Shown here in pieces: positions 3,099 to 33,780 of a DNA stretch of 33,780 bases (positions are counted from its first letter, which is position 1; each line of letters starts with the position of its first letter). Origin of the DNA: Gammaproteobacteria bacterium (GTDB lineage: Bacteria > Pseudomonadota > Gammaproteobacteria > Arenicellales > JAANXG01); assembly GCA_024639325.1 (NCBI GenBank), contig JAHEIO010000040.1, forward strand, positions 1 through 33,780, read 5' to 3'. The notes under the pieces are model-generated. The model worked only from the letters and a program-made list of their open reading frames with translations, was not told the DNA's origin and did not search any database. The position numbers and the translations under genes are program-made.

Positions 3099-4748
3099 CT
3101 ACCTTTGACGGTTCCGCCAGTCCGGCGCCTCGTAAACCGGGGCTTTCGAAGGCGGCAGGGGCTCACGGCCCCGGATCGCATCCGCCAGCTTCTCAGCCAG
3201 CATGATCACCGTGGCATTGAGATTACCGTTGACGATGTTGGGCATGATGGAGGCGTCAGCGACGCGCAGCCCTTCTATACCGTGCAGCCTCGCCCCCGCG
3301 TCCACCACCGACATTTCGTCCGTCCCCATCTTGCAGGTGCAGCTCGGGTGGTATGCGCTCTCGCCTTTCTGCCTGACGAATTCGTCGAGCGCCTCGTCGC
3401 TCTCGGCATCCGGTCCTGGAGCAAGTTCCGGACCGCGCAGGTCGTCGAATGCGCTCTGCGCAAAGATCTCTCGCGTATGGCGGATCCCGTCACGCATGAC
3501 CTGGCGGTCGTGTTCGGTGGAAGTGTAGTTGAACAGGATTCTTGGGGGATCTTTTGGATCCGCGGATCGCAACTCCACCGAGCCTCGGCTGCTCGGTCGC
3601 ATGGGTCCGGTATGCGCCTGGAAACCGTGACCCCCCGCCGGGCTACGGCCATCGTAATTAATGGCGACGGGCAGGAAATGATACTGCAGGTCCGGGTACT
3701 CCACCCCGGCCCGGCTGCGTATGAACCCGCCACTTTCGAACTGGTTCGACGCGCCCCACCCCTTTTTGGTCGTGAGCCACTGCAGCCCGACCTTGAGTTT
3801 GGTTAAAGGTTTAGTCGCGGGGTAGATGGATATGGGCTGCGTGCAACCGTGCTGGATATAGATCTCCAGATGGTCTTGCAGATTGCGGCCCACACCCGGC
3901 AGCTCCGCTTTGACGTCGATGCCCAAGTCATGCAGCCTGCTGCCATCGCCAACGCCGGAAAGGTTCAGCAGTTGAGGCGAATTTATCGCTCCGCCGCACA
4001 GGATGACCTCGCCGGCATCGACATTCTCCACGCTGCCGTTGCGCACGCACTCGATACCCACCGCCTTATTGCCGTCAATTCGGATGCGAGTCACCAGCGT
4101 CCCGAGCCGCAATTCCAGGTTGGGCCGGGACAGCGCCGGTCGCAGATAAGCTTTGGCCACGCTACACCGTTTTCCCTCGTAGGTGGTCATGTCCATAGGC
4201 CCTAGACCTTCCTGCTGAAAGCCGTTCATGTCATCGGTGTACGGATATCCTGCCTGCTCGCCCGCTTCGATGAAGGCCTTGAAAAGCGGATTTTCACAGG
4301 CGCCGGTGGTCACCTTCAAGGGGCCCGAGTCGCCACGATACTCATCGCCACCCTTGAGCCGCGTCTCGGCTTTTCTAAAATAGGGCAGGACATCGCGGTA
4401 AGCCCAGCCCTCGGCGCCCGACGACTGCCAGCCGTCGTAGTCCCTGGCGTTGCCCCGAATGTAGACCATACCGTTGATTGACGAAGACCCGCCGATTACG
4501 CGCCCTCTCGGGCAATACATCCGGCGGTTGTTCATGTGCGGATCGGGTTCGCAGTCGTACGCCCAGTTGTAGCGATCATTTCCCAACGGGTATGAAAATG
4601 CCGCGGGCATGTGAATCATGATGCTCCGGTCTTGCCCCCCGGCCTCGAGCACCAGCACCCGAATCTCCGCATCCTCGCTCAGTCGCGCCGCCAGTACACC
4701 CCCGGCGGACCCGGAGCCGATTACGACGAAGTCATAATGCTTGTTGAT
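3099..4748 (-). CDS. GMC-family FAD oxidoreductase (choline dehydrogenase-like), probable ATC start
   Basis: This is a GMC oxidoreductase of about 549 residues. Such enzymes oxidise alcohols using FAD; choline dehydrogenase is the closest familiar type. The C-terminal active-site segment has YHPSCTCKMG, with the catalytic histidine, and the late NGNLNAT motif. The Rossmann segment YDFVVIGSGSAGG lies in the same frame upstream of the first GTG at 4658, so a start there would cut out the FAD-binding loop. In that frame the only codons between the upstream stop (4764-4766) and the Rossmann segment are TTT GAG GAG TGC CTT ATC AAC AAG CAT TAT. A GAGGAG ribosome site sits six bases before ATC at 4746-4748. 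I therefore place the start at this ATC; a sequence error that removed an ATG is the alternative. The alcohol substrate is unknown. Confidence 0.85.
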   Translation of the reverse strand: MNKHYDFVVIGSGSAGGVLAARLSEDAEIRVLVLEAGGQDRSIMIHMPAAFSYPLGNDRYNWAYDCEPDPHMNNRRMYCPRGRVIGGSSSINGMVYIRGNARDYDGWQSSGAEGWAYRDVLPYFRKAETRLKGGDEYRGDSGPLKVTTGACENPLFKAFIEAGEQAGYPYTDDMNGFQQEGLGPMDMTTYEGKRCSVAKAYLRPALSRPNLELRLGTLVTRIRIDGNKAVGIECVRNGSVENVDAGEVILCGGAINSPQLLNLSGVGDGSRLHDLGIDVKAELPGVGRNLQDHLEIYIQHGCTQPISIYPATKPLTKLKVGLQWLTTKKGWGASNQFESGGFIRSRAGVEYPDLQYHFLPVAINYDGRSPAGGHGFQAHTGPMRPSSRGSVELRSADPKDPPRILFNYTSTEHDRQVMRDGIRHTREIFAQSAFDDLRGPELAPGPDAESDEALDEFVRQKGESAYHPSCTCKMGTDEMSVVDAGARLHGIEGLRVADASIMPNIVNGNLNATVIMLAEKLADAIRGREPLPPSKAPVYEAPDWRNRQR

Positions 4749-4847: not shown

Positions 4848-6029
4848 TTACTCTGGAACAGTCAGCGGCAATTCACTCGTGTCGGCCCGGGCCTTTGCAC
4901 TTGGTAACGTCTTCTTTAGCAGGTCCATCACCCGCAGCGCGGTGGCCCGATAGCCGGTCAACTTTCCCCCGAATATGGACACCACTCGGGGCTTCGATTC
5001 ACTGTCGAGGGGTAGCTGGGTTTCCCGGGAGCGCCTGAAAGCCGACTTGCGCGTCGCCGGCAACACCCTCAATCCGGCCCACCGATCCAGCACATCCGTC
5101 GGGCGATCGGGGAAGTAACGACTGTAAACCTCCAGCAGGTAGGAGACTTCTTCCGGCAGGGTTTCGACCGAGCCCGGATCACCCCCATACGGGTGCTCGG
5201 TGGTACCCAGAAGCGTCCTGCGGCCTTTCCAGGGCATGACGAACACGGCTCGCCGGTCGCGAGGCGCCTCGACGTAGTAGCAGCCTTGTTCGATGTCACC
5301 GGGCAGCTCCAGATGCGCACCCTGCACGTTCTCGACGACCAGATTCGGAACCGCGGGGTTGAACTGGTGCGTTATTCGGCTGGCCCAGGGACCGGCTGCA
5401 TTGACCACGGTGGCTGTCTTGCACCGGCTGATTGCCCCATTCGTGCTGTAGCTGACGTCGCAGCCGTGTCGGTTGATCTCGCCGAATTCGAAACGGGCCG
5501 GACACAACAGCGTCGCGCCCAGTCCCTGGGCGGAATCCATCACGGCACGGGTCAGCAGGGCGTCATCGGTCTGCGCGTCCCAATACTGGAACACTTGCCG
5601 CAGACCGTTTGTTCGAAGGCCGTCGAGATCCTGCCACTTACTCCGCGCTACCGAGCTGAACCGGTTGTACTCACCCATGCCGGCCAGTAATGCATACAGC
5701 GACAGGCCCGCCCTGATTTGCCAGGGCCCGCGCGTCGTGTCTTGATAGATGGGAATAAAAAATTTTTGTCGTTTTACCAGGTTCGGCGCGAGCCGCAGCA
5801 GAAGCTCACGTTCGCGGAGCGATTCTCGTACGAGGGAGAATTCGGCGGTCTCAAGATAGCGCAGTCCGCCATGGATAAGTTTGCTAGAACGGCTGGATGT
5901 GCCGGATGCCAGGTCGTTCTGTTCGAGCAGGGCAACCTGGTAACCCGCCGCCGCCGCCGCCTGGGCAACACCCACGCCGTGGATGCCGCCTCCGATGACC
6001 AGTACGTCGCAATCCAGGGTCGAAGGCAT
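4848..6029 (-). CDS. GlpD-like FAD-dependent glycerol-3-phosphate dehydrogenase/oxidoreductase, short form
   Basis: This 393-residue FAD oxidoreductase matches the N-terminal two-thirds of aerobic glycerol-3-phosphate dehydrogenase (GlpD). It has GGGIHGVGVAQ (residues about 13-23), then SGTSSRSSKLIHGGLRYLE, and the late segments AGLRVLPATR and FGGKLTGYRATA. GlpD oxidises sn-glycerol-3-phosphate to dihydroxyacetone phosphate at the membrane and passes electrons to quinone. Typical GlpD proteins run to about 500 residues; this one stops soon after the GGKLTGYR motif and lacks the helical C-terminal domain. No continuation is apparent in the short gap to the GMC gene, so it may be a naturally short subtype. 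Upstream on the same strand is the CBS/PII/DUF1538 cluster, about 115 bases away. Confidence 0.8.
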   Translation of the reverse strand: MPSTLDCDVLVIGGGIHGVGVAQAAAAAGYQVALLEQNDLASGTSSRSSKLIHGGLRYLETAEFSLVRESLRERELLLRLAPNLVKRQKFFIPIYQDTTRGPWQIRAGLSLYALLAGMGEYNRFSSVARSKWQDLDGLRTNGLRQVFQYWDAQTDDALLTRAVMDSAQGLGATLLCPARFEFGEINRHGCDVSYSTNGAISRCKTATVVNAAGPWASRITHQFNPAVPNLVVENVQGAHLELPGDIEQGCYYVEAPRDRRAVFVMPWKGRRTLLGTTEHPYGGDPGSVETLPEEVSYLLEVYSRYFPDRPTDVLDRWAGLRVLPATRKSAFRRSRETQLPLDSESKPRVVSIFGGKLTGYRATALRVMDLLKKTLPSAKARADTSELPLTVPE

Positions 6030-7705: not shown

Positions 7706-7713
7706 ATCCAACG

Positions 7714-8745: not shown

Positions 8746-10419
8746 ATGACAAACTCCCCGCCTTCAACACCTTTGGACGCACTCGAGCGGTTGCAGCGCG
8801 TTTACGGTGCCGAGGTCACTCAAGACAAGCTGGAGCTGCTGCAATCACTGGATGAATCGATGCTGCGAAGCGCAGACGATGTTTCCAGGCTGCACGACGT
8901 TTTGTGCTTCATGCGCGCCTATCCCGACAATCGCAAGATACTCAACCGCGTCGAGGACATGCTGACCGGCTTCGCCAACAGAAAGGATCTGCAGCGTTAT
9001 CGTCTGAAATTGTCGGATACGGGAATCGCCGGAACGCACATTCACTACCGATTCCACTGGAAGACTGCGAAGTGGCTTTACGACCACTGGCCGGAGGCCA
9101 TAGCCATAGACTGGGCCGAGTTCGAAGACCCGTCGGCACTCGAAGAACTGTGGCCGCTCTTACTCCCGCCGCCCGCGCAGGAGACACTCGAGCGCATGTC
9201 GATGTCACCGCGGAAATGGATAGAAACGCTGAAGAAACCCGACGAGACCGACGCGGCGTTCCTGGTCCGCATTTTTGCGCGCTGGCCCGCCGGCGAGGCC
9301 GTTCGAGAGAAATCCTATGACGATCTGGATGTGCCTTTCACGCTCCTACCCGCGGTCGGCTCGCCGTCACGCACCCACGCTCAGGTCAAGCCGAAGAAAC
9401 CGGCCTACGGCGCGCCTGGGATATCCGTCCGGTCCACTGCGGCACGGGCCATGCCCAAACCGCTCAACGTGCTCGATGTCAGCCCGCGCCACGGTCGGAC
9501 GCTGATCAATCTGGCCCGCACTCAAATGGTCACGCGCAGCCGGGACCTGTACGCATTCATGAATGCGGACTCCCGCGACGTGCGCATCCTGACTTTCGAC
9601 TCCGGCATCCAATTCGTAAGCTACGGTCTCCTGCCCCACGCCCGGACGCTGCTCGAAGCCATGTACGTGTTCCTGATCCTGAAGAACGGCCTGCCGGTCG
9701 GATACACCCAGGCCGCAACCCTGTTTCGTTCGGCGGAAATAAACTTCAATGTATTCGACACCTTCAGGGGGGCCGAAACGTCCAGGATCTTTGGTTTGAC
9801 GCTGGCTATGGTCCGCCACATGTTCCAGTGCGACACGTTCATCATCAATACGCAGCAGCTCGGCGAAGACAACGATGAGGCATTGAAAACCGGCGCGTTC
9901 TGGTTCTATCACAAACATGGATTCCGCTCCCGAAACCGGGATATCCGAGCCATAGTGCGCCGTGAACTCGAACACAAGAGGCGAAACCCGCGCCACAGGT
10001 CGGATCTGAAGACATTGCGGCAGCTCGCCGGCGACGAGCTCTACCTGAGCAGCGGGAAGGCGCGAGGCGAACTCGTGACCAGCATACCCGGTGCCGCTAT
10101 CGGGCTTTCCGCGGCACGTATGTTGGAGACCCGCGCCTCTGCGTCGGACCCCACAGGTACACGGAGTTGCATCAATGCGGCGTCGAAACTTCTGGGTTGT
10201 CGCATCGATTCCCGGTTTCCCCTGTCACAGTGGGAGGCATGGGAACGGTGGAGCCCGGTGGTGCTGTCGTTGCCTGGGATTCGCCGTTGGTCCGTGGTGA
10301 ACCGGCGGGCACTGGCGGAGGTGATCAACGCCAAGGGCGGGCACCGCGAGTCGGACTTCGTGGCGCTGTTTGACAAGCATCGCACGCTTCAGAAAGCCAT
10401 CCTCAAACCCGGCGGTTAG
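8746..10419 (+). CDS. Uncharacterised 557-residue protein, possible GNAT-like C-terminal half
   Basis: I do not recognise this protein by name. It is soluble, with no signal peptide or membrane segment. The N-terminal half (1-230) is helical and charged, with regions such as LHDVLCFMRAYPDN and YRFHWKTAKWLYDHWPE. After a basic, Pro/Ala-rich linker (about 205-240) comes a second half. There, GLPVGYTQAATLFRSAEINFN, FDTFRGAE, and the segment from QLGEDNDEALKTGAFWFY to HKHGFR resemble the acceptor/acyl-CoA parts of GNAT acetyltransferases, in particular the GAFWFYHKHGF ending. It stands alone on the plus strand, divergent from the DUF1538 cluster and about 540 bases before an MFS gene. A modifying enzyme is possible but not shown. 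The start has only a weak ribosome site. Confidence 0.7.
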   Translation: MTNSPPSTPLDALERLQRVYGAEVTQDKLELLQSLDESMLRSADDVSRLHDVLCFMRAYPDNRKILNRVEDMLTGFANRKDLQRYRLKLSDTGIAGTHIHYRFHWKTAKWLYDHWPEAIAIDWAEFEDPSALEELWPLLLPPPAQETLERMSMSPRKWIETLKKPDETDAAFLVRIFARWPAGEAVREKSYDDLDVPFTLLPAVGSPSRTHAQVKPKKPAYGAPGISVRSTAARAMPKPLNVLDVSPRHGRTLINLARTQMVTRSRDLYAFMNADSRDVRILTFDSGIQFVSYGLLPHARTLLEAMYVFLILKNGLPVGYTQAATLFRSAEINFNVFDTFRGAETSRIFGLTLAMVRHMFQCDTFIINTQQLGEDNDEALKTGAFWFYHKHGFRSRNRDIRAIVRRELEHKRRNPRHRSDLKTLRQLAGDELYLSSGKARGELVTSIPGAAIGLSAARMLETRASASDPTGTRSCINAASKLLGCRIDSRFPLSQWEAWERWSPVVLSLPGIRRWSVVNRRALAEVINAKGGHRESDFVALFDKHRTLQKAILKPGG

Positions 10420-21154: not shown

Positions 21155-22459
21155 TCATCCCAGAACCGAAAAACTGCTTTCCTCGTTGATCGGCCGCTTT
21201 CGTGAGTAGAACCCGGCATCGATGGTCCGTTGGATATAGGGAAGGGTGAACTGCAACGGCGAATCGTCATGGTCATTGCCGTTCTCACAATAGTCGATCA
21301 AAGCGGCCATCATCTTGCCGGCAATCGGGGCATTTTTATACTGATTACCGCTGGTCCCGATCGCCATATAGTAGCCGGGTACCATCGATTTGTCATAGAT
21401 CGGTATCCAGTCGTCCGCCACATCGTACAGATCGACTACGCCCCTGGGGCTATTGGGAATCTCGAGGCTTGGCACCCGCTGGGCATAACGATACGCCTGG
21501 AGGGTCCACTGCTCCGTGAACTCCCGGTGATAGTGCTCATCGTCCACCCATTCCCTGGGATCACACTGCGGGTCCTCACTGCCGACCAGAATATTATTAC
21601 CATGCTCGGGGCGGCAGTAGCACGAGATGTCACTATCCGAGATAACCGGTACGGTGTTGAAAAAATCGAAGTTTCCCGGTGATGGCACGTGGACCACTTC
21701 CTGGCGCAATGCCCGCGTCGAGATGGTCATGTCTTGCAGCGCCCCGGCCATCGCATTGACCTTGGCCGATGCCGGCCCGGCGACATTGACGACGATCGGA
21801 GCATGAATCTCGCTGCCGTCATCCAGCCGCACACCCCGCACACGATCAGTGGTTTTGAGGATTTCGGCCACTCGACGGCTGAACAGGAATGCGCCCCCCT
21901 TGGCTTCCGACGCCCTCTGCAGGTTGTGCGTAGACAGCTGCGGATCCGTCACATAGCCCGCCGTGGGGAAGAACACCGCGCTTTCGACCTCGCCGCTCCC
22001 CGGCTCTCCAAAACCGACGTCATTCACTCTCTTTGGCGGCCAGTAACTGGTCAGATCGTATATCGGAATTCGATCTTTGATCGTCGCCGCATTCCAGATT
22101 TCGAACGGTACGCCAATCTCCTCACACAAAGCGATATGCTTGCTCATTAGGCCGTTCTGCCTGGTTCGCATCACCATGCATCCCACGTCGCGGAACTCCG
22201 CCATGCCGCGCTCATCCGTCGCCTCGAGGTACTCCGCCCAGTCGCGCCAGTAAAAATATCCCTCGTACGCGAATGCGGTGCCCTCGAGCGTTGAGTAATG
22301 CACGCGAATAATGGCGCAGGAACCGCTCGTGGGGCCGTAGCCGGCGGCCGGATTCTTGTCAATGGAAATCGTACGGTAGCCCGCCTTGTTCATTTCAAAA
22401 GCGGTTGCCGCACCAATCACGCCGGCTCCGATGATGATCGCGTCTGCTTTCTCCGTCAT
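21155..22459 (-). CDS. DAO-family FAD-dependent amine/amino-acid oxidoreductase
   Basis: This 434-residue flavoprotein resembles sarcosine oxidase beta, D-amino-acid dehydrogenase and dimethylglycine-type oxidases. The dinucleotide motif GAGVIGAATAFE is at residues about 11-22, followed by a DKNPAAGYGPTSGSCAIIR flavin-contact segment. A substrate-side segment GYVTDPQLSTHNL and the C-terminal WIPIYDKSMVPGYYMAIGTSG complete the fold. Such enzymes demethylate or deaminate secondary and tertiary amines. It sits 30 bases downstream of the MttB-family gene on the same strand. A joint role in stepwise demethylation of a quaternary amine is likely but unproven. Confidence 0.88.
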   Translation of the reverse strand: MTEKADAIIIGAGVIGAATAFEMNKAGYRTISIDKNPAAGYGPTSGSCAIIRVHYSTLEGTAFAYEGYFYWRDWAEYLEATDERGMAEFRDVGCMVMRTRQNGLMSKHIALCEEIGVPFEIWNAATIKDRIPIYDLTSYWPPKRVNDVGFGEPGSGEVESAVFFPTAGYVTDPQLSTHNLQRASEAKGGAFLFSRRVAEILKTTDRVRGVRLDDGSEIHAPIVVNVAGPASAKVNAMAGALQDMTISTRALRQEVVHVPSPGNFDFFNTVPVISDSDISCYCRPEHGNNILVGSEDPQCDPREWVDDEHYHREFTEQWTLQAYRYAQRVPSLEIPNSPRGVVDLYDVADDWIPIYDKSMVPGYYMAIGTSGNQYKNAPIAGKMMAALIDYCENGNDHDDSPLQFTLPYIQRTIDAGFYSRKRPINEESSFSVLG

Positions 22460-22489
22460 AGCTGTTGCTTCTTCTGCTGTGTTGCTGTG

Positions 22490-24043
22490 TTACTCATCGA
22501 GCGGCAAACTCCCACCCTCGGTGGAGCGCCGCTCGACGAACTCGAACAACGCCTCCTCGGTACCGGGGCATAAAGCAGGCGCCTCGAAAACGGCAAGCGT
22601 GCTCTTCCAGATCTCGTTTGCCCGTTTTACGGCCGTTTTTGCGCCATCATTGCTCCACTCGCCAAAATTACGCCAGTCCGACAACAGGGGACTATAGAAC
22701 GCCGACCGGTATCTTTCCATGGTGTGCTGCGCCGCGAAGAAGTGCCCCCCCGGCTCGGTGGCAGCGATTGCGTCGAATCCCAGTTCGGCATCACTGGCAT
22801 CGAGCGGATGCAGCACCTCGGCAAGGATCTGCAGCATTTCGACATCCAGAATGAATTTTTCCTTCGATGCCGTCAGACCACCCTCGAGCCAGCCCGCGGC
22901 GTGCTTCATGATGTTGATTCCGCCGAGGACACCGCCCCAGGCCGACATGAGTGTCTCATAGACAGCCTGTTCGTCGGGCGCATTCGATGCGGTGGCGGCA
23001 GAACCGCGCCAGGGTAGGCCGATGTGCCGCGCCAGTTCACCGGCACCGAAGGCGCCCTTGACGAACTCCGGCGTGCCGAACGCCGGGGAACCGGACCGCA
23101 TGTCGACATTGGACGTGAACGATCCGTACACCACCGGGGCACCGGGGCGGACGACTTGATCGAGCGTGATCCCCGCCAGCGCTTCCGCATGCTGCAAGGT
23201 GAGCGCTCCCGGAATAGTTACCGGTGCCATGGCGCCGGACAAGGTGAATGGCGTGACAATGACCATTTGTCCGGCACGGGCAAAGTCCATGATGCCCTGG
23301 CACATTGGCACATCCAGCTGCCTGGGAGAATTGGTATTGATTACGGTGTGACACCAGGCCCTGGCCCGGAACTCCTCGTGTGAAAGGTCCCGGGCGATGC
23401 GGATCATCTCGAAGCAATCGTGGACCTGGCCGCTGCCGCGGGAGTAGACAAAGGGCACCTTGTCGCTCAGCGTGAGCTGACTCAGGGTCGTCTGCAGGTG
23501 GCGCACATTGAGGTCTACGTCCTGGGGCTCGACGCTTTGCGAAAGCAGATGGATGACATCGAAACTTTGCGCCAGTTTGATCAAGATCCGCAGCTCCTCG
23601 AGCGTCCCGGTACGTTTGCCACGATCGAGATCCGATACGAACGCGGGACCGCCCACCGGCCCAAAGACTAGGTTGTTCCCGCCCACCTTGATCGAGCACC
23701 CGTCGGATCCGCCGTGGACCTCGAACATTTGCGGCGCGGTGTGAAGTGCGCGCGAGACCAGTTCACGATCGAAACGAACCATCATGGTGTCTTCCGACAC
23801 ATCGGCACCCGCGTCCGCCAACACCTTGCGCGCTTCTGTGTTGAGCACCCGGACTCCCAGCTCCTCCAGCACCCTCAGCGCGGTGTCGTGTATGGCTTCA
23901 ACACGATCCTGAAACAGGGCGGGTTGCCGGATCAGCGGATTCGTCAAATTCCGGTAGTCGACTGATCGGTGGTGTTTAGGTGCCGCCGGCGGTCGGCGCC
24001 GGCGTCGGCCGGCGGACCGTGGACCTGCTGATGGCGCTGCCAA
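22490..24043 (-). CDS. MttB-family (non-pyrrolysine) methylamine/betaine methyltransferase-like protein
   Basis: This 517-residue TIM-barrel protein belongs to the trimethylamine methyltransferase superfamily. The N-terminus is a basic RRRRRPP patch, then IRQPALFQDRVEAIHDTALRV and LEELGVRV, usual for this subgroup. Later come VFGPVGGPAFVSDL, NTNSPRQLDVPMCQGIMDFA and QHAEALAGI. The frame has no internal amber codon, so it lacks pyrrolysine and matches the glycine-betaine-type branch. Characterised members move a methyl group from a quaternary amine to a corrinoid protein. No corrinoid protein lies in this window. Translation starts at TTG (24041-24043), seven bases after GGAGG. It lies between a peptide-type ABC importer and the DAO gene. 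Confidence 0.88.
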   Translation of the reverse strand: MAAPSAGPRSAGRRRRRPPAAPKHHRSVDYRNLTNPLIRQPALFQDRVEAIHDTALRVLEELGVRVLNTEARKVLADAGADVSEDTMMVRFDRELVSRALHTAPQMFEVHGGSDGCSIKVGGNNLVFGPVGGPAFVSDLDRGKRTGTLEELRILIKLAQSFDVIHLLSQSVEPQDVDLNVRHLQTTLSQLTLSDKVPFVYSRGSGQVHDCFEMIRIARDLSHEEFRARAWCHTVINTNSPRQLDVPMCQGIMDFARAGQMVIVTPFTLSGAMAPVTIPGALTLQHAEALAGITLDQVVRPGAPVVYGSFTSNVDMRSGSPAFGTPEFVKGAFGAGELARHIGLPWRGSAATASNAPDEQAVYETLMSAWGGVLGGINIMKHAAGWLEGGLTASKEKFILDVEMLQILAEVLHPLDASDAELGFDAIAATEPGGHFFAAQHTMERYRSAFYSPLLSDWRNFGEWSNDGAKTAVKRANEIWKSTLAVFEAPALCPGTEEALFEFVERRSTEGGSLPLDE

Positions 24044-24308
24044 ACTCGTACCTCCGGAGGCCTGGTTGTCGGATACGTCAGGCGGACCAGTGTATCTTAG
24101 CTGGTCTCCGATACACCCGTAATCTTAATGCCGTGAAAAACGGTAATCGCTCCATCGTGGGACGTACCCGTATACCGGAATCGGCCTACTTTGCCGTGTG
24201 CCGCCCCTGTTCCCTTGGGTGGCGCGCACGTTCATCGGCGGGGGGAACGAGCACCTGGCAGAAGCGTTGCCGCGATTCTTGTTTCCCCGGATATTGAGCT
24301 GAGCGTGT
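24044..24308 (-). promoter_or_regulatory. Leader region of the MttB-DAO gene pair
   Basis: The 265 bases between the ATPase stop and the MttB start contain no gene. The ribosome site lies in a perfect palindrome, CCTCCGGAGG (24051-24060). Further up are two interlocking inverted repeats: GACCAG (24085-24090) with CTGGTC (24101-24106), and GTGTATC (24090-24096) with GATACAC (24110-24116). They share a base, so they cannot both form. This could be a leader with alternative folds, but no ligand-binding structure is recognised. Confidence 0.35.
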
Positions 24309-25970
24309 TTATGAACTGGACGTGGACTGCATAACGCCCTCCTGGGCGCGGCGTTCCATCAATTCATCCAGCCAATTGGGATCCATTTCCGGGACGGACG
24401 ACAGCAGCAGATCGGTATATTCGTGGTGGGGCGGCGTGAACATCTCGTCCTTCGGTCCATGTTCCACGATCTTGCCCTGCAACATGACGATCACCTCATC
24501 GGCAATGGCGCGAACGGTCGCCAGGTCGTGCGTAATAAACATGTAGGACAGACCGAGCTCGCGCTGCAGCCGGTCCAGCAGCCTCAGTATCCCTTCGGCG
24601 ACGATTTGGTCCAGCGCGGAGGTCACCTCATCGCAGATGATGAACTCGGGCTCCGCCGCCATGGCGCGCGCAATGCAGATGCGCTGTTTCTGACCGCCGG
24701 AGAGCTCCCCGGGAAACCGGTCGATGAACTGGTTCGGCTCCAGTTCTATCATTTCGAGCAGTTCCTTGATCTTTTCTTCCAGGTCCCGTCCGGACAAACC
24801 CAGGTAGAATTGCAGAGGGCGGCCGATGATCTCGCGGATTCTCTGTTTTGGATTGATCGCCGTGTCGGCCATCTGGTAGATCATCTGGGCGTGGCGGAGT
24901 TGCTCCTTGCTTCGCCTGCGGTAGTCCCCCGGCAAGGCCTCTCCCTTGACCAGGACCTGTCCCTGCTTGGGAGGGAGCAGGCCGGTGATGACCCTCGCCG
25001 CAGTGCTCTTGCCGCTGCCGGATTCACCGACCACCGCGACGGTCTGTCCCTCGTAGATGTCGAAGCTGATGTCGTGCAGCACGGTCAGCGGCCCATAGGC
25101 CGCGGTGACGTGATCCACCGCGACAAGGGGCGTGGTGCTGGTGTCGTAGATTTCGGATTGCTTCTTGAAGGTACGAACCGCCCACAAAGTCTTGGTATAG
25201 TCCTCCTGCGGCGCTGACATCATGTTCGCCGTGTCGTTTTCTTCGACAAGCTCGCCGTAGCGCAGGACCATGATCCGGTCCGCCATCTGAGCCACGACCG
25301 CCAGGTCGTGGGTAATGTAGATCGCCGCGGTATTGAACTGCTCCACGATGTTGCGGATCGTCGCCAGCACCTCGATTTGCGTGGTGACGTCGAGTGCGGT
25401 GGTCGGCTCGTCGAAAATAATCAGGTCGGGCCGGCAGGCCATGGCCATAGCGGTCATCGCCCGCTGCAGCTGTCCGCCGGATACCTGGTGCGGATAGCGA
25501 TATCCGATATTGTCCGGATCCGGCAACAACAGCCGCTTGTAAAGGTCTTTGGCGTCGGCCTCGGCTTCGGCCCGGTTCCTGACACCGTGTTCCACGGGGC
25601 CCTCCGCGAACTGGTCGATCAGTTTGTGCGCCGGATTGAAAGAAGCCGCAGCGCTCTGCGCGACGTAGGAGATGCGCACACCTCTGAGCTTCCTGCGCTC
25701 CCGCTCGGACATCGCCATGAGGTCCATGCCGTCGAATACGATGGAGCCGCCCGAGATCCTGCAGCCGGGCCGCGCAAAGGCCATGGCTGCCAGGCCAATC
25801 GTGGATTTACCCGCACCCGATTCACCGATCAGGCCGAGAACTTCGCCCCGGTTGAGTACGACGTCCACGCCCTTGACGATTTCCTGCCATTCCTCGTCGG
25901 CCTGACCCTCGATGCGCAACCCCCGCATTTCTAGCAGCAATCCGCCGTCGTTCTCCGCGCTACTGGTCAT
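24309..25970 (-). CDS. Peptide-type ABC transporter, fused double ATP-binding protein
   Basis: This protein of about 553 residues contains two complete ABC ATPases (DppD- and DppF-like) in one chain. In the first half the Walker A motif is GESGAGKST and the signature is [14 protein letters not shown]. In the second half the Walker A motif is GESGSGKST (about residue 317 onward) and the signature is [15 protein letters not shown]. Each half has its [16 protein letters not shown] motif and THDLA switch. It energises the two permeases encoded upstream and overlaps the nearer by 11 bases. I prefer the ATG at 25968-25970 over the GTG one codon earlier. Substrates of this transporter class include peptides, opines, nickel and small betaines. 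Confidence 0.93.
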
Positions 25971-26868
25971 CACGAAGTCCGCTGGTTTTGTGCAGGAACC
26001 AGTCGACTACGAAGTTCACCGCAACGGTCAACAGGGCGATGGCGGCGGCCGGAATCAAGGGGGTGATGTCGCCATAGGTAATCAGGGTTGCATTGTCCCG
26101 AACCATGCTGCCCCAGTCCGCGGTCGGGGGCTGCAGGCCGAGCCCGAGGAAGCTCAGCGCGGCAATAGTGAGAAATACGAAACAGAACCTCAAGCCGAAC
26201 TCGGCGACCAGCGGCGGCATGATGTTGGGCAGCACTTCCTTGAGCGTAATCCATCCCATTCCCTCCCCGCGCAGCCGCGCAGCCTCGACGAAATCCATGA
26301 CCACCACATTCAGGCTGACCGCCCTCGCGAGCCGATACACCCGGGTCGAATCCAGCACCGCGATGACCAGCACGAGCACCGGGATGGAGGTGCCGAATAT
26401 GGTTAACAGCAACAGCGCGAAGATAAGCGCCGGGATGGCCATGAGCACATCGACGATCCGGCTGAACAACTGATCCATCCAACCACCGAGTGTGGCCGCC
26501 AGCACGCCGCTAATCCCGCCGATGAGAAATGCCAACACCGTGGTGACGAACGCGATCCCGATGGTGTTTCTGGCGCCATAGAACAGACGCGTCAGCATGT
26601 CGCGGCCCAGGTTGTCGGTACCCAGCAAATATCCCTCTCCCCAGGGCTCGAATTCCGCCCCAACAACCTCGGACTCGCCGTACGGTGTCAGCAAGGGAGC
26701 GAACAGCGCGATGAACACGTATATCAGGATAACGATGATGCCGATTTTTGCGCTAAGCGGCGCTTTCTTAAGCGCTTTCCATGCATCACTCAACCTGCGC
26801 TCGTGCGGGGGGGGCGGCGCCACGGCGTCAGCGGTCTGTCCAACCGTGCTTTCGTATTTGTCGGTCAT
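25960..26868 (-). CDS. Peptide-type ABC transporter permease (DppC-like)
   Basis: This 302-residue permease starts at the ATG 26866-26868, which overlaps the DppB-like stop by four bases (ATGA). The open frame extends further upstream, but that part is shadow of the DppB gene. After a proline-rich cytoplasmic head (VAPPPPHERRLSDAW) comes the first helix, IGIIVILIYVFIALF. Typical DppC features follow: LLGTDNLGRDMLTRLFYGAR (about 88-107), the coupling segment AARLRGEGMGWITLKEVLPNI, and the late FLGLGLQPPTADWGSM. It pairs with the DppB-like protein. Confidence 0.93.
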   Translation of the reverse strand: MTDKYESTVGQTADAVAPPPPHERRLSDAWKALKKAPLSAKIGIIVILIYVFIALFAPLLTPYGESEVVGAEFEPWGEGYLLGTDNLGRDMLTRLFYGARNTIGIAFVTTVLAFLIGGISGVLAATLGGWMDQLFSRIVDVLMAIPALIFALLLLTIFGTSIPVLVLVIAVLDSTRVYRLARAVSLNVVVMDFVEAARLRGEGMGWITLKEVLPNIMPPLVAEFGLRFCFVFLTIAALSFLGLGLQPPTADWGSMVRDNATLITYGDITPLIPAAAIALLTVAVNFVVDWFLHKTSGLRDDQ

Positions 26869-27821
26869 CGCGGGTGTAGCAACCGGGGATTGGTAATTAT
26901 CGACAGGATGTCCGCGGTGAGATTCAGGATGATATAGGTCGCCGCAAATATGACGCAGCAGGCCTGCACCACCGGAATGTCGCGCTTGGCAACCGAGTCC
27001 ACGATCAGTTGGCCCAGTCCCGGATAGACGAACACCACTTCGACCACGACCACGCCGACGATGAGGTAGGCCAGGTTGATCACGATCACGTTGACGATGG
27101 GCGCCCATGCATTGGGCAGCGCATGCTTGGTGATGATATGTCTGCGCGTCATGCCCTTGAGGTTCGCCATTTCGATATATGGGCTTGCCAGCAGGTTGAT
27201 AATGCTGGCACGCGTCATACGCATCATGTGCGCAACGACCACCAGGGTCAGAGTGAGCGCCGGAAGAAAGGCCTTGTACATCTTTTCAGTAAGCGGTGTA
27301 TCCGGGGTGATGTTGGACAAACTGGGAAACCAGCCGAGATTCACCGAGAAAAATATGATCAGGATATAGGCCACGAAAAACTCGGGGAAGGAAATCGACG
27401 ACAGTGTGACGATATTCACCACGCGGTCATAAATACTGTTCCGGTGCAGCGCCGCCAGGATGCCCAGGGCCACGGCGAGTGGAACCGAAATAATGGCGGC
27501 GTAAATGGCGAGGAAAAATGTGTTGGCGGTGCGGTCGCCGATCAATTCGGATATCTGTCTGCCGTTGGCAAGTGATACCCCAAAGTCGCCTTTCAGCATA
27601 TTGCCCAGCCACACGAAATAGCGATGGTAAACCGGTTTGTCCAGACCGAGTTCCTTGCGGCAGGCTGCCACCGTCTCTTTGGTTGCGGACTGACCCTGCA
27701 GTTCCTGGCAAAGATCGCCGGGCAGCAGTTCCACCGCGCCGGCGATGATGACCGATATTATGAACAGAACGAGTACGCCCAGACCCAGGCGTTGAAGAAC
27801 GATTTTTAACAGCTTGAACAA
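26865..27821 (-). CDS. Peptide-type ABC transporter permease (DppB-like)
   Basis: This 318-residue membrane protein has the DppB pattern: FKLLKIVLQRLGLGVLVLF at the N-terminus, ELGLDKPVYHRYFVWLGNML (about 56-75), GDFGVSLANGRQISELI, and the coupling segment YIEMANLKGMTRRHIITKHAL. It starts with TTG at 27819-27821, with no strong ribosome site. It heads the permease-permease-ATPase block. The binding protein that should precede it lies beyond an MltB gene and a terminator. Confidence 0.92.
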   Translation of the reverse strand: MFKLLKIVLQRLGLGVLVLFIISVIIAGAVELLPGDLCQELQGQSATKETVAACRKELGLDKPVYHRYFVWLGNMLKGDFGVSLANGRQISELIGDRTANTFFLAIYAAIISVPLAVALGILAALHRNSIYDRVVNIVTLSSISFPEFFVAYILIIFFSVNLGWFPSLSNITPDTPLTEKMYKAFLPALTLTLVVVAHMMRMTRASIINLLASPYIEMANLKGMTRRHIITKHALPNAWAPIVNVIVINLAYLIVGVVVVEVVFVYPGLGQLIVDSVAKRDIPVVQACCVIFAATYIILNLTADILSIITNPRLLHPR

Positions 27822-28012
27822 TCCGACGCCCTGAGACGCTCAGCCGCGCCCGGTATCCAGGGTGATGCCAGCTGCGCCACCGCGGACCACTACCCAGGGT
27901 TGCGGCAAGCCCGGCTCGACTAACATCTCATCCTCTTGGTTTCAGACGGTTCATTATTCACTTTTTGAGCATTCTATAGGTATCCATACAAAAACCCAAA
28001 CCCCGCCGTGTT

Positions 28013-29251
28013 TTACAACTCGTTACCCCGCATGTTTCGAAGCAGCGACATCGACGCAAAGCCGTCCGGTACGAGGCCTTCTCGCTGCTGGTAGATTCGT
28101 ATGGCCGCGCGCGACTCCGAGCCGATCCGACCATCTATTTCGCCGTGGTACAACCCCAAATCAGCCAGCTTTATCTGTACCTCCTTGCGTTCGATCTCTC
28201 GCAACGGATCGTAACCCCGCGGCCACGATTGAACGAACTCCCCATACCCTTTCAGGCGATCCGCCAGGTGGCCGACCGCCAGCGCGTACTTGTCGGCGTT
28301 GTTGTAGCGTTTGAGCACATAGAAGTTCTTGAGCATCAAAAAGGCTGGCCCGCCGGCGCCTCCCGGCAGGAGTAGCACGGCCTTGTCACCGGGCCGTGGA
28401 AACGATGTTCCGGCGGCTCGCCGGACGCCCATTGCGGACCATTTTCTCAGCGTGAAGTCGTCCCGGTTGAGCAGCGAGTAATCGAAATCCTTTGGGAGTC
28501 TCACCTCGTATCCCCACGTCTTTCCACGCTGCCATCCGTTCTTTGCCAAAAGATTGGCCGCCGATGCCAGTGCGTCCGGCGGCGATGTCCAGACATTGCG
28601 CTTGCCGTCTCCATCAATATCTACCGCCCAGGTCTGGTAGCTGGTTGGAATGAATTGAGTATGCCCCATAGCACCCGCCCAGGACCCTCTCAACCCCGCG
28701 GGTGAAACGTCGCCGTTTTGCACTATTTGCATGGCAGCGATCAGCTGTTTGCGCGCAAACTTGCTGCGTTTCGGATCGGCATACGCCAGTGTGGCGAGCG
28801 AGCGAGCGATGTTTCGTAACACAGAATGCCTCTCCAGAGCGGCGCCGTAAGACGACTCGATCGACCAGATCGCCAGGAGAATGTAACGGTCGACGCCATA
28901 GCGGGATTCGATCAGATCAAGCCATCTCTTGTATTCACGGGCCAGGGTCCGGCCCTTGTAGATGCTGCCCTCCGTAACCCGGGAATCCAGATAATCCCAA
29001 ACCGGTGCAATGAACTCTGGCTGGTAGCGGGCGGCCTTGACCACCGCCGGGTCCGGGGTTTCGATCCCGGCAAAAATCGCATCGTAGGTTTTTTTCGTTA
29101 TACCGGCCTGTGCGGCAACAGGATAGAATTCATCGATCCATTTAATAAACGCATCATCGGCGTTGGCGACGGTGTGATGCAGCAGCGCCATCAAAAAAAG
29201 CGTTGACATTGGCAGGCTGAATACCGTCGATCTGGGGAGAATCTGTTTCAT
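28013..29251 (-). CDS. MltB-family lytic murein transglycosylase with PG-binding domain
   Basis: This 412-residue protein cleaves peptidoglycan glycan strands to 1,6-anhydro products. The N-terminus (to about residue 32) is a signal peptide without an obvious lipobox cysteine, so it is probably periplasmic and soluble. Catalytic glutamate E132 lies in IWSIESSYGA. Further hallmarks are AMGHTQFIPTSY and YAVDIDGDGKR-like WAVDIDGDGKRNVW, and a C-terminal PG_binding_1 domain (about 348-408) with LGLYHGEIDGRIGSESRAAI. Oddly, it lies between the binding protein and permease genes of a peptide-type importer, on the same strand. A terminator separates it from the binding-protein gene. Its own stop is about 190 bases before the DppB-like start. 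Confidence 0.92.
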   Translation of the reverse strand: MKQILPRSTVFSLPMSTLFLMALLHHTVANADDAFIKWIDEFYPVAAQAGITKKTYDAIFAGIETPDPAVVKAARYQPEFIAPVWDYLDSRVTEGSIYKGRTLAREYKRWLDLIESRYGVDRYILLAIWSIESSYGAALERHSVLRNIARSLATLAYADPKRSKFARKQLIAAMQIVQNGDVSPAGLRGSWAGAMGHTQFIPTSYQTWAVDIDGDGKRNVWTSPPDALASAANLLAKNGWQRGKTWGYEVRLPKDFDYSLLNRDDFTLRKWSAMGVRRAAGTSFPRPGDKAVLLLPGGAGGPAFLMLKNFYVLKRYNNADKYALAVGHLADRLKGYGEFVQSWPRGYDPLREIERKEVQIKLADLGLYHGEIDGRIGSESRAAIRIYQQREGLVPDGFASMSLLRNMRGNEL

Positions 29252-29265
29252 GTTGACGTTCTAAT

Positions 29266-29334
29266 TTAGATCACCACGCTGTAAAAGATCACGGCGATGA
29301 TGCCGCAAGCCACGACGAGCTGGTATCGATCCAT
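29266..29334 (-). CDS. Possible 22-residue hydrophobic peptide or gene remnant
   Basis: A tiny frame encodes MDRYQLVVACGIIAVIFYS followed by VVI, a single hydrophobic segment with a charged start, and ends 14 bases before the MltB start. The ribosome site is weak. It slightly resembles the first helix of membrane-bound pyrophosphatases, so it could be a remnant rather than a real small protein. The remaining part of 29335-29470 shows nothing I can name. Confidence 0.25.
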   Translation of the reverse strand: MDRYQLVVACGIIAVIFYSVVI

Positions 29335-29472
29335 TGTGTTTCGTTGGCGTCCATCAACACTTCCCCACTCGATTTGATCGACATTGCCAGCGCCCTTGTT
29401 TATCTCGCGGGGACATCAGACATACTGTAGACAATTCCCGGCATCGGCTATGCCGCTCGGCAGCAGGAACAA

Positions 29473-29510
29473 ATAAAAAACGCCCGGATGGCTAATCGGC
29501 CGCTCCGGGC
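29473..29510 (-). terminator. Rho-independent terminator after the binding-protein gene
   Basis: Read on the minus strand, GCCCGGA and TCCGGGC form a seven-base GC-rich stem enclosing a 15-base loop, followed by GTTTTTTATT. It lies about 30 bases after the stop of the solute-binding-protein gene. It would end most transcripts there, so that the binding protein is made in excess over the permeases, or independently of them. Confidence 0.85.
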
Positions 29511-29541
29511 ATAAACCGAGATCGATCAATAGCCGGCTAGA

Positions 29542-31146
29542 TCAGGCAAACCACCAGCGTTCGGCGTTCTTGTGACCGTCGAGCTCCCAGTTGTTGGCCA
29601 TCTGCTCAGGCAAACCGACATCCTTGGTTGCCGCGTGCGTGTAGGCCATGAACACCGGGATGATGGAGCCGCCGTCCTCGTTAACCAGCCGCTGCATCTC
29701 GACATACATATCGCGACGCTTGTTGGAATCCAGCTCGCCCCTGGCCTGCACCAGCAGTTCGTTGAAGCGCGTGTTGTCCCAATGTGACTCGTTCCAGTCG
29801 GCTCCCTTGGAATAGATCTGGGAGAAGACCCAGTCTTCGGTCGGCCTGCCACCCCAGTAGCTCGCCACCCAGGGTTTCTTTAACCAGACGTTGGACCAGT
29901 ATCCGTCATTGGGTTCGCGCACGACGTTGATCGAGATGCCGGCGGCTTTGGCACTTTCGGCGAAAAGCTGCGCCGCGTCCACGGCACCCTCGAAAGCGCT
30001 GTCCGCGACATGAAAATCGACCTTGAGATCGGACATGCCGGCCTTCTTGAGATGGGATTTGGCCTTTTCCGGATCGAACTCCCGCTGGGGCAATTCTTCC
30101 GGCGTGGCGCGGTAGATGTTCGCCGGGCCGACTGGGCTGTCGTTACCGACCTCTCCCAGCCCCTTGACGATCTTGTCCAGAATTTCCTGACGATTGACCG
30201 CGTACTTAAGGGCGAGACGGACATCATTGTTGTCGAACGGGGCAACGTCGGTGAGCATGGGCATGGTCACGTGTTTGTTGCCGTTGGTGGAGAACACGTG
30301 GATCCCCTCCTGACGTTTGAGAAGGTGCACCGTCTTCAGGTCCAGGTTGGCCATGGAATGGATATCCCCGGTCCGAAGTGCGTTTGTACGTGCCCCCGCG
30401 TCTGCAATAAACAGATTTTGAACCGAATCGAAAAATGCCCGCCCTTCCTTCCAATAGTTTGGATTGCGCTTGACCTTGGTGTTGATGCCTGGATCGAAAT
30501 CCTCCAGGACGTATCCCCCGGTGCCGACACCGGATTGCCAGTCGATAGTGCCATCGGAATTGGCCGGGCAAATGACGAGATGATAGTCGCTGACCAGGAA
30601 CGGGAAATCGGCATTGCCTCCGTCGAGGGTGAAAACCACGATGTCGCTTCCTTCGGCTTTGACGTCGGTAACCGGCCCCACGATGCCTTTGGCGGCGGAC
30701 TTCGTCTCCTCGCCACGATGATGATTGAACGAAGCCACAACGTCGTTGGCATCGAGCGTCTTGCCGTTGTGGAACTCGACCCCCTTGCGCAGCTTGAAGC
30801 GCCAGGTCGCGGCGTCAGGCGTCGCTTCCCAGCTCTCCGCCAGCTCCGGGGCCAGCTCTCCGCTGGGCGAAATCTCGGTCAGGTTGTTTCGCAGTTGTCC
30901 GAAGCTCACGTTGATCATGTACGAATCGAGGGTCTGTGCGGGGTCCAGCACGTCGCTGGTAGCGCCCCCGGTCAAACCCTGGAGGTATTGCCCTCCCTTC
31001 TTCGGCGCCGCCGCCATCGCTTCTTCCTGCAGAATCAACGCGGGCACTGCCGCCGTTACGCCCAGCGCCGCAGCCCTGGACAAGAATTCGCGACGCGTAA
31101 TCCTGCCTTCGGATAGTTGCCTCTGCAGGTCCTCGAGTTTCCTCAT
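29542..31146 (-). CDS. Peptide-type ABC transporter substrate-binding protein (SBP family 5), Tat signal
   Basis: This 534-residue family-5 binding protein has a Tat-type signal: TRREFLSRAAALGVTAAVPAL (about residues 18-38), ending AMAAAP. Family-5 landmarks are LAPELAESWEATPDAATWRFKL then RKGVEFHNG (about 98-126), DVRLALKYAVNRQEIL and the C-terminal SYWGGRPTEDW. It delivers a ligand to the DppB/C/D-like transporter downstream. Family members bind oligopeptides, opines, glutathione or small quaternary amines; the MttB and DAO genes of the same strand favour an N-methylated ligand, as inference. AGGAGG sits eight bases before the ATG. Confidence 0.93.
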   Translation of the reverse strand: MRKLEDLQRQLSEGRITRREFLSRAAALGVTAAVPALILQEEAMAAAPKKGGQYLQGLTGGATSDVLDPAQTLDSYMINVSFGQLRNNLTEISPSGELAPELAESWEATPDAATWRFKLRKGVEFHNGKTLDANDVVASFNHHRGEETKSAAKGIVGPVTDVKAEGSDIVVFTLDGGNADFPFLVSDYHLVICPANSDGTIDWQSGVGTGGYVLEDFDPGINTKVKRNPNYWKEGRAFFDSVQNLFIADAGARTNALRTGDIHSMANLDLKTVHLLKRQEGIHVFSTNGNKHVTMPMLTDVAPFDNNDVRLALKYAVNRQEILDKIVKGLGEVGNDSPVGPANIYRATPEELPQREFDPEKAKSHLKKAGMSDLKVDFHVADSAFEGAVDAAQLFAESAKAAGISINVVREPNDGYWSNVWLKKPWVASYWGGRPTEDWVFSQIYSKGADWNESHWDNTRFNELLVQARGELDSNKRRDMYVEMQRLVNEDGGSIIPVFMAYTHAATKDVGLPEQMANNWELDGHKNAERWWFA

Positions 31147-31701: not shown

Positions 31702-33360
31702 CTATCTGCTGGTTTCACGAACGTTGTTCACATCGGACATCATCTCACCGATGCGGTCCGTTTCGACATAGCTGATGCCGCGCGCGGGATATGATGCGGC
31801 CTCGGCAGCGTCGTCTACGACGTAAACCGCCCAGCGCCAGGGGCCACTCCATCCCGCGCAAACGCTGTTGGGCAGTAGTCGCTTGCTAACGAAAAGAAAA
31901 TCTGGATTGAGTTCTCTGGCCCGCTGCTCGGTGGACCGGTTCCACTTCGAAAGAACCCAGCCGACTCTGGCGCCGTGCTCCTCGCGCGCATATTCAATAC
32001 AGCCATGGTGGAATGAAATGACTATACAACGATCGATGACCATCCCGATGGCGTCGATCACTCTGTCTACGGTATTTTCGAGCCCGAAGTGGTTGACGCT
32101 TTCCGCCTTTACCTCTACGAAAGCCTGCGCCCCCGGCCAGCCCTCCAGCAGTAGCGAGAACTCGTTCAGCGTCATGACCGGATTTCCGTAGAATGATTTT
32201 CCAAACCTTGACGGGATGTGGGCGCTCAATTCTCTGATCCCGGCAAGCGGATGGTCGAACAGTGAGCCCTTGACGCCCGATATGCGCATCGTATCCGTGT
32301 CGTGATACAGCACAGGGATCTTGTCCTTGGTCAACTGAACGTCCAGTTCAACGAAACCCGCACCCGCCTCCAGCGCCTTTTTGAATCCAATCAGGGTATT
32401 TTCCGGGTACATCGACGGGTAGCCGCGATGCGCCACCAGCACGGGAACCGGACTTCGCATGTCCTGCCGCCACCAGTCCGCCACGATTCGCCCTACCACG
32501 GGATTGACCAGATAGCCATAGGAACGATGGACGTTTAGACCATCGTCATTGCGAAACCAATTGAACACCCTGCCGCAGTGATCGTGTATGGTTTCGATGA
32601 GCCCGTCATCAATCATTTGCGCAAAATCGTCGCGCACCCTTTTGTCCAACGAGATCAGATCCCCCGTGGCGGAGACGTTCTCCCATCTGCGGATGCCCGA
32701 TGGATAGCTCCTCCTCCCCCCGTCGCTCCCCAACAGGTGTTTCTGTACGTAACGCATGCCCAGCGGGCTGCCGATGGTTAGGAACAGATCGATGCTGCAG
32801 GGAGATCTGTCGACATGGCTGAGCTGCCACATTACGTCGTACGCGATAACCGACCCCATGCTATGTGCTATCAGAAGTACGCGGTCACCTGCGTCCATCG
32901 CATCGCATATCAGTTCCTTCAGCGGTTTGCGGATGTTGTTTGCAACGCCATCTTGGTTAACGAAATAGGGTTCGGTATCCCTGACCATGGCTTTGACGCG
33001 CTCGTCCGGGATCCACTTGATCAATCCGTGAAATCGATCTCCCACTTCGTACATCAATTGCGTGGCCACCCGGTGCCAGGCACGGGCCTGCACCCTATCC
33101 TCGTTGTCCGCGGCCTTCTGCGCAATTAACTTATCGATCCAGGGGATGTCTGCTTGCAGCGACGCATGCGCAGCGTAATACATATGGTTCCATGCCGCCA
33201 GCGTGAAGCCACTGGATTCTATTTCCATTTCGTCCGCAAGTCGGGCGTCGACTCGGCGAACGCCGTTCAGGATACAACGCCACAGATGCCGGCGATGGAT
33301 CGCGGGCTCGGGTTTCATGTTCCGACCCGGCACATAGATGATTCGTCGACGCGCTGCCAT
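31702..33360 (-). CDS. Fusion of alpha/beta-hydrolase and glycerophosphodiester phosphodiesterase
   Basis: This 552-residue protein has two enzymatic domains. Residues about 1-300 form an alpha/beta-hydrolase-like domain: YVPGRNMKP at the oxyanion end, the nucleophile elbow AHSMGS with S167, TIGSPLGM, and a possible histidine in VHRSYGYL. Residues about 305-540 form a GDPD (GlpQ/UgpQ-type) TIM barrel: AHRG (H311, R312), PENT, ELDVQLTKD (E338, D340), LYHD (H353) and FVEVKAE (E416, K418). GDPDs split glycerophosphodiesters into glycerol-3-phosphate and an alcohol. Together the halves could deacylate a phospholipid and then cleave its head group. No signal peptide is seen, so a cytoplasmic location is likely. 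It starts 282 bases from the divergent srkA gene. Confidence 0.88.
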   Translation of the reverse strand: MAARRRIIYVPGRNMKPEPAIHRRHLWRCILNGVRRVDARLADEMEIESSGFTLAAWNHMYYAAHASLQADIPWIDKLIAQKAADNEDRVQARAWHRVATQLMYEVGDRFHGLIKWIPDERVKAMVRDTEPYFVNQDGVANNIRKPLKELICDAMDAGDRVLLIAHSMGSVIAYDVMWQLSHVDRSPCSIDLFLTIGSPLGMRYVQKHLLGSDGGRRSYPSGIRRWENVSATGDLISLDKRVRDDFAQMIDDGLIETIHDHCGRVFNWFRNDDGLNVHRSYGYLVNPVVGRIVADWWRQDMRSPVPVLVAHRGYPSMYPENTLIGFKKALEAGAGFVELDVQLTKDKIPVLYHDTDTMRISGVKGSLFDHPLAGIRELSAHIPSRFGKSFYGNPVMTLNEFSLLLEGWPGAQAFVEVKAESVNHFGLENTVDRVIDAIGMVIDRCIVISFHHGCIEYAREEHGARVGWVLSKWNRSTEQRARELNPDFLFVSKRLLPNSVCAGWSGPWRWAVYVVDDAAEAASYPARGISYVETDRIGEMMSDVNNVRETSR

Positions 33361-33642: not shown

Positions 33643-33780
33643 ATGAATAAGGATAATAGCGAAACCCTCGCCTATCAGGCACTCGGTCCCGATCAGATTC
33701 TGGGTTCCGTTGAGAATCTGGGATACCGGTGTGACGGCCATCTGATGGCCATGAACAGCTACGAGAACCGGGTCTACCAG
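33643..33780 (+). CDS. srkA: Stress-response kinase A (SrkA/YihE-like), partial
   Basis: Only the first 46 codons lie in the window. The peptide includes LGPDQILGSVENLGYRCDG followed by a closing MNSYENRVYQ, which is the characteristic N-terminus of the SrkA (YihE, RdoA) Ser/Thr kinase. SrkA limits stress-induced cell death in gammaproteobacteria and is usually upstream of the periplasmic oxidoreductase gene dsbA. The ATG at 33643 has only a distant AGGA. The remaining sequence lies beyond the right edge. Confidence 0.88.
   Translation, partial: MNKDNSETLAYQALGPDQILGSVENLGYRCDGHLMAMNSYENRVYQ

Follow-up and report, generated by a model that had tools for sequence, protein, structure and literature searches.

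The window analysed here, the whole stretch of 33,780 nucleotides, carries near its end an open reading frame on the minus strand (31702..33360, ATG start) that encodes a single chain of 552 residues with two domains. The N-terminal alpha/beta-hydrolase (ABH) domain spans residues 1-300 (32461..33360, minus), as delimited by an alignment, an AlphaFold2 (AF2) model, and PDB matches, and the C-terminal glycerophosphodiester phosphodiesterase (GDPD) domain spans approximately residues 305-545 (31726..32448, minus). In the AlphaFold model of the fused chain, the last hydrolase helix ends at residue 298 and the first GDPD strand runs from residue 307, with a linker of approximately eight residues in between (junction residues 299-306; 32443..32466, minus). 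Both halves are well folded in this model; because the whole-chain pTM is 0.67, how the two domains sit relative to each other is uncertain, and channelling is thus not supported. A first-pass annotation had placed a hydrolase and a GDPD on one chain, with an AHSMGS elbow at S167 and a full GDPD active site at H311, E338, D340, and H353, and had pointed to GlpD-like and choline dehydrogenase-like genes in the same window. The arrangement and the residue numbering were both confirmed, and both genes are present, namely one for a short GlpD-like FAD-dependent glycerol-3-phosphate dehydrogenase of 393 residues (4848..6029, minus) and one for the choline dehydrogenase BetA (3099..4658, minus). Upstream of the fusion, on the plus strand, lies the divergent start of a kinase gene (33643..33780) that is cut by the window end.

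The fusion was found full-length in all four genomes of the genus, that is, in the window genome (G000) and in G310, G309, and G308 at 97, 61, and 57% identity, respectively, and an assembly error, frameshift, or chance is rejected as its source because the fused frame is intact in these four genomes. A further locus (L002), the only one from a scan of genome contigs, probably belongs to the same genome as G310 and was counted once. In a single pairwise comparison of the window with L002, resting on 27 and 21 base differences, the hydrolase half had a dN/dS of 0.09 and the GDPD half one of 0.33. A search for the same domain order elsewhere gave no further full-length match, among the matches listed, in the other 105 of 109 genomes of the order, nor, the window aside, in 274 genomes of the class or 398 of the phylum, and none of the 172 matching plasmid records reached 80% of the query. 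The fusion is thus lineage-specific.

The C-terminal domain matches Pfam GDPD (PF03009, residues 311-470) with an E-value of 5.6e-25 and 89.3 bits against a cutoff of 23.6, and its barrel fold matches that of 2pz0 with an E-value of 4.4e-17 and a target TM of 0.88. The closest folds are the GDPD structures 2pz0 and 3qvq, the latter bearing a title that names the bound product sn-glycerol-3-phosphate. GDPD active sites are made up of HR, ExD, and HD motifs, and the corresponding residues—the catalytic His H311 in HRG (32428..32430), E338 (32347..32349) and D340 (32341..32343) in ExD, which are presumably the metal ligands, and the second catalytic His H353 in HD (32302..32304), all on the minus strand—are invariant across the aligned GDPD domains (35/35). 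These domains were aligned separately for the count because a 43-row full-length alignment, on which the full-length structure model is based, misplaces the first strand of single GDPDs. The closest NCBIfam model is PRK09454, which we take to be UgpQ, and its equivalog cutoff was missed (77.3 bits versus 264). Family and active site provide good support for a reaction in which this domain would cut a glycerophosphodiester into sn-glycerol-3-phosphate and the head-group alcohol, as the second step of a predicted route that begins with deacylation by the hydrolase. The order could also be the reverse, with the GDPD domain acting as a lysophospholipase D that releases the head group, and the lysophosphatidate so formed being deacylated to glycerol-3-phosphate by the hydrolase. 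Indeed, the lysophosphatidylglycerol phospholipase D of staphylococci belongs among the relatives of the GDPD family (NF053857; E 2.7e-12, 46.6 bits against a cutoff of 450), its folds 8ghh and 8ghi are among the structural matches of the domain, and the gene context described below fits this order equally, because the end products are the same. However, the closest NCBIfam model is that of the glycerophosphodiester phosphodiesterase PRK09454, even if the domain lies far below its cutoff, and the reversed order is considered unlikely.

Residues 1-300 are, as judged from sequence and model, a serine hydrolase of the alpha/beta-hydrolase fold, an assignment that is based on a conserved triad, a confident fold, and PDB matches rather than on Pfam. 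Predicted alone, the domain reached a pLDDT of 91.6 and a pTM of 0.92 (AF2). The nucleophile S167 (32860..32862, minus), in the AHSMGS elbow following strand 160-166 of the model, is present in 24 of 25 aligned rows and is replaced by Gly in one distant relative; the probable triad acid D234 (32659..32661, minus), which follows strand 223-229, is kept in 24 of 25 rows, with Glu in the remaining one; and the probable triad histidine H278 (32527..32529, minus) is found in all 25. By contrast with this fold, all Pfam matches of the hydrolase half are sub-threshold, the best being Abhydrolase_6 (E 0.0045, 18.1 bits against 26.3), with LCAT (PF02450; 17.5 bits against 21), PGAP1 (PF07819; 17.7 bits against 24.3), and DUF900 also among the weak matches, and NCBIfam gave no match for this half. 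Among the 25 ABH members, Pfam LCAT is the commonest match at E <= 1 (24/25), and DDHD is absent from the best 25 of 35 Pfam families for the ABH alignment, with Nir DDHD domains high among the structural matches.

When the ABH model was compared with 1000 PDB chains by VIA-align, 797 reached Z >= 8. Lysosomal phospholipase A2 (4x97) came first, with a Z of 14.0 and an rmsd of 3.3 over 192 aligned residues, and LCAT (5txf) ranked ninth, with a Z of 13.1 and an rmsd of 3.5 over 194; the ordinary esterases SOBER1 and Pseudomonas carboxylesterase gave Z values of 13.2 and 13.0, and phospholipases and esterases are thus practically tied for most of the top rows, because the gap in Z is within about one by the VIA-align rule. 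In a profile search of PDB sequences, the top row was group XV phospholipase A2, with a weak E-value of 0.0049, and some of the rows that came next were unrelated proteins. Kinship of the domain with lipid-acting hydrolases of the LCAT, lysosomal phospholipase A2, DDHD, and PGAP1 kinds is favoured, not proved. In the proposed first step, the serine hydrolase S167-D234-H278 would remove the acyl chain or chains from a lysophospholipid or phospholipid; we infer this action, including removal of both chains in the case of a phospholipid.

DDHD domains of the Nir type serve in membrane docking, and the hydrolase domain might accordingly be a non-catalytic lipid-binding or regulatory module that docks the GDPD to membranes. 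The best Foldseek match of the domain is the DDHD domain of Nir2 (E 4e-4, TM 0.34), to which VIA-align assigned a Z of 13.8 and an rmsd of 4.8 over 230 aligned residues; the values for Nir2 DDHD 9c37 were 13.9, 5.0, and 234, and those for the Nir2 and Nir1 DDHD domains together ranged over Z 13.7-13.9, rmsd 4.8-5.0, and 230-238 aligned residues. The Gly that stands in for the catalytic Ser in one distant relative would also suit a docking module. Nevertheless, conservation of the Ser (24/25), the acid (24/25), and the His (25/25) argues for catalysis, as does the lower dN/dS of the hydrolase half in the one pairwise comparison, making the docking role very unlikely.

The genomic setting of the hydrolase links it to glycerol-3-phosphate metabolism. 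The search profile was built from ten N-terminal domains, and close relatives, defined by E <= 1e-80, were found in 14 genomes. The hydrolase is fused to GDPD in four of these and lies directly upstream of a separate GDPD gene in another four (G307, G290, G465, and G153). A consecutive run of ABH, GDPD, and short GlpD genes is seen in G307, G290, and G465, the ABH gene of G290 being cut by the contig end, and the G153 set is divided between contigs, one of which ends inside GDPD, while another starts inside ABH and continues to GlpD. In two further genomes (G291 and G292), ABH is directly upstream of GlpD without GDPD, and in two (G082 and G033) it adjoins a GpsA-like gene that stays under the curated cutoffs (best 158 bits versus 257). 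Overall, 12 of the 14 close hydrolases are fused to or adjoin GDPD, GlpD, or GpsA-like genes, which are not 12 independent events because several of the genomes are from related lineages. It was also observed that the GlpD gene behind ABH is broken in G292 (L098, approximately 6947-7710, with stops inside the match) and intact in G291 of the same genus, and that the ABH gene of G082 and G033 (L092 and L093) is divergent from the gene for the GpsA-like glycerol-3-phosphate dehydrogenase.

This setting bears on the proposal that the hydrolase is an esterase acting on some unrelated ester, the fusion merely keeping two co-transcribed genes together. The specificity of an alpha/beta-hydrolase is unreadable from its fold, ordinary esterases score about equal to phospholipases, and the close hydrolases of G167 and G473 have no GDPD, GlpD, or GpsA neighbour within the 12.9 kb searched; on the other side stands the association of 12 of 14 with such genes, related lineages being counted apart. 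An unrelated ester is thus regarded as distinctly unlikely.

The GlpD-like protein of the window scored below the cutoff of the GlpD model (304.8 bits versus 360). Its close relatives mostly have 388-409 residues with the start codons chosen here, whereas the open frames of lower-scoring rows mostly span about 490-620 residues; 'short GlpD' here denotes the close-relative kind, that is, rows at E <= 1e-83. In 274 genomes of the class, own genome excluded, a short GlpD gene was found directly downstream of a related GDPD gene on the same strand in 50 of 51 rows, with gaps of -1 to 186 bases, compared with 6 of 73 lower-scoring GlpD rows, four of these six being partial matches. Seen from the GDPD side, and among the matches listed, a GlpD row lay downstream of 51 of 64 GDPD rows at E <= 1e-30 versus 5 of 71 weaker ones; one of the 13 without it (G153:C215) ends with its contig. 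These adjacency counts comprise 51 + 73 GlpD rows and 135 GDPD rows among the matches listed, with up to six GlpD candidates scored per genome. In the sampled Gammaproteobacteria, the GlpD form of approximately 390 residues is almost always encoded directly after GDPD. Long open frames had suggested GDPD-GlpD fusions in G061, G244, G088, and G127; these were rejected, since the two genes are in different frames, as worked out by hand from the coordinates.

The gene context provides the strongest evidence for a pathway reading, and it supports a third step in which the short GlpD, as a separate protein, would oxidise glycerol-3-phosphate to dihydroxyacetone phosphate. The hydrolase is an optional member, because most GDPD-GlpD pairs lack it: at E <= 1e-10, ABH was found in 20 of 369 genomes of the class, with at most six candidates scored per genome, and in 10 of 109 of the order, own genome counted in both. 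The kinase encoded at 33643-33780 is of the PRK11768 type, which we take to be SrkA; its L002 homologue reaches the NCBIfam model PRK11768 'serine/threonine protein kinase', and genes of this kind often adjoin this GDPD on its upstream side within the order. As evidence against the pathway reading, short GlpD is absent from all 16 f2 stretches in which GDPD lies beside SrkA (L015, L020, L043, and L045-L057).

With respect to the head group, the BetA gene directly follows that of the short GlpD, reaches the betA equivalog model (759.8 bits versus a cutoff of 732.1), and is adjacent to the short GlpD gene in all four genomes of the genus. The fusion and the short GlpD gene are on the same strand, about 25 kb apart in the window and 18.7 and 39.6 kb apart in G309 and G308, respectively, and are on different contigs in G310. 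Outside the genus, BetA was found at E <= 1e-6 in none of eight stretches holding short GlpD, although one of the eight, L112, stops shortly after GlpD. The pairing of the short GlpD with a choline dehydrogenase is the main ground for preferring choline over ethanolamine or glycerol as the head group: hydrolysis of glycerophosphocholine would yield exactly the two substrates of the GlpD-BetA pair. The evidence is circumstantial but specific, and we infer that choline is the likeliest head group and glycerophosphocholine the likeliest intermediate in this genus. Downstream of BetA, a gene at 2539-3015 encodes a 4Fe-4S ferredoxin-like protein and another at 600-2423 a member of the aldehyde:ferredoxin oxidoreductase family, the latter occurring together with BetA in every genome of the genus (4/4); speculatively, this oxidoreductase could take betaine aldehyde.

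Other parts of the window include genes at 21155-31146, all on one strand, for a family 5 solute-binding protein, Opp-type permeases and an ATPase, an MttB-family methyltransferase (22490-24043, intact frame), and a DAO-family oxidase (21155-22459), a set that suggests methylated-amine uptake and demethylation; no MttB was detected in the ATPase-oxidase interval of G309. The distance between the fusion and the binding-protein gene of the SBP_bac_5 transporter is 0.2-0.6 kb in three genomes (G000, G310, and G308) and 2.3 kb in G309. Import of glycerophosphodiesters by this transporter was considered, but nothing was found that ties it to such a substrate. For a 557-residue protein (8746-10419), neither Pfam, at thresholds of 0.001 and 0.01, nor NCBIfam gave a match; it is present in G310 at 96% identity and was not found in the fetched stretches of G308 and G309. 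Searches of the window for defence systems (PADLOC), RNA elements (Rfam, gathering score), and tRNAs were all negative.

As for the origin of the fusion, the fused halves form one clade in both trees (supports of 0.97), with the split pair of G307, a member of the same family, as sister of this clade at supports of 0.72 and 0.76 in the two trees; the trees serve single-origin inference only, as support at deep nodes falls to 0.15. ABH and GDPD are separate adjoining genes in G307, G290, G465, and G153. With the start codons as read here, the overlap is ATGA in the two G153 copies, GTGA in G465, and 11 bases long in G307, and G290 has a gap of 10 bases. An ABH-GDPD-GlpD operon in which the ABH and GDPD genes overlapped, or nearly so, is the probable source of the fusion, and stop loss in an overlapping gene pair would be a route that fits. 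The fused architecture is new, the component enzyme kinds are known, and the evolutionary and pathway setting is unusually clear. A literature search covering titles and the starts of abstracts retrieved neither an ABH-GDPD fusion nor a GDPD-short GlpD operon, which leaves absence unproven, and it gave no name for a recycling module of (SrkA)-ABH-GDPD-short GlpD.

Taken together, the locus is read, with moderate confidence, as encoding a cytosolic bifunctional phospholipid-recycling enzyme that would deacylate its substrate, cut off the head group, and pass glycerol-3-phosphate to GlpD. Since the first strand starts at residue 5 in the AlphaFold model, there would be no room for a signal peptide, and the protein therefore probably recycles intracellular lipids rather than digesting outside ones. 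The first-pass suggestion of two-step phospholipid dismantling is partly supported, gaining from the split ABH-GDPD-GlpD runs and from the GlpD-BetA pair. More tentatively, one chain could convert a (lyso)phospholipid into fatty acid, choline, and glycerol-3-phosphate in the cell, as a fused counterpart of ABHD4 and GDE1 and as part of a gammaproteobacterial module, (SrkA)-ABH-GDPD-short GlpD, in which short GlpD would be the dedicated partner of GDPD. If so, the fusion, whose split form can still be recognised in relatives and which has a dedicated dehydrogenase behind it, would supply a complete path for returning membrane lipid to central metabolism, and an assayable function would be provided for the common gammaproteobacterial GDPD-short GlpD pair and for a hydrolase whose window member lies below all Pfam cutoffs.

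Among known systems, the single-domain bacterial GDPDs (PF03009), presumably of the UgpQ type, share the complete active site and the barrel, and the window domain reaches the PF03009 cutoff as they do; the window protein differs in its fusion to a hydrolase and in its score below the PRK09454 equivalog cutoff. In the GlpQ-GlpD system of Mycoplasma pneumoniae, glycerophosphocholine is hydrolysed to choline and glycerol-3-phosphate, which GlpD converts to dihydroxyacetone phosphate (PMC3178575). From glycerophosphocholine onward, this is the same route as proposed here, whereas no fused deacylase is described in the parts of that report consulted, and its GlpD is an oxidase that makes hydrogen peroxide (PMC3178575). 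In mammals, N-acyl phosphatidylethanolamine is deacylated by ABHD4, after which GDE1 releases glycerol-3-phosphate and the head group (PMC10400869). Deacylation by an alpha/beta-hydrolase followed by GDPD-family release of glycerol-3-phosphate would thus be common to both, but by that account two mammalian proteins are involved there, compared with the one bacterial chain proposed here (PMC10400869). In addition, structures of LCAT, PLA2G15, and DDHD proteins head the matches of the hydrolase of the fusion. The LCAT, lysosomal phospholipase A2, and DDHD phospholipases resemble the window hydrolase in fold and in the region around the AHSMG elbow; the sequence similarity is weak and the Pfam LCAT cutoff is missed, and the window hydrolase, unlike these enzymes, is bacterial, probably cytosolic, and about 300 residues long.
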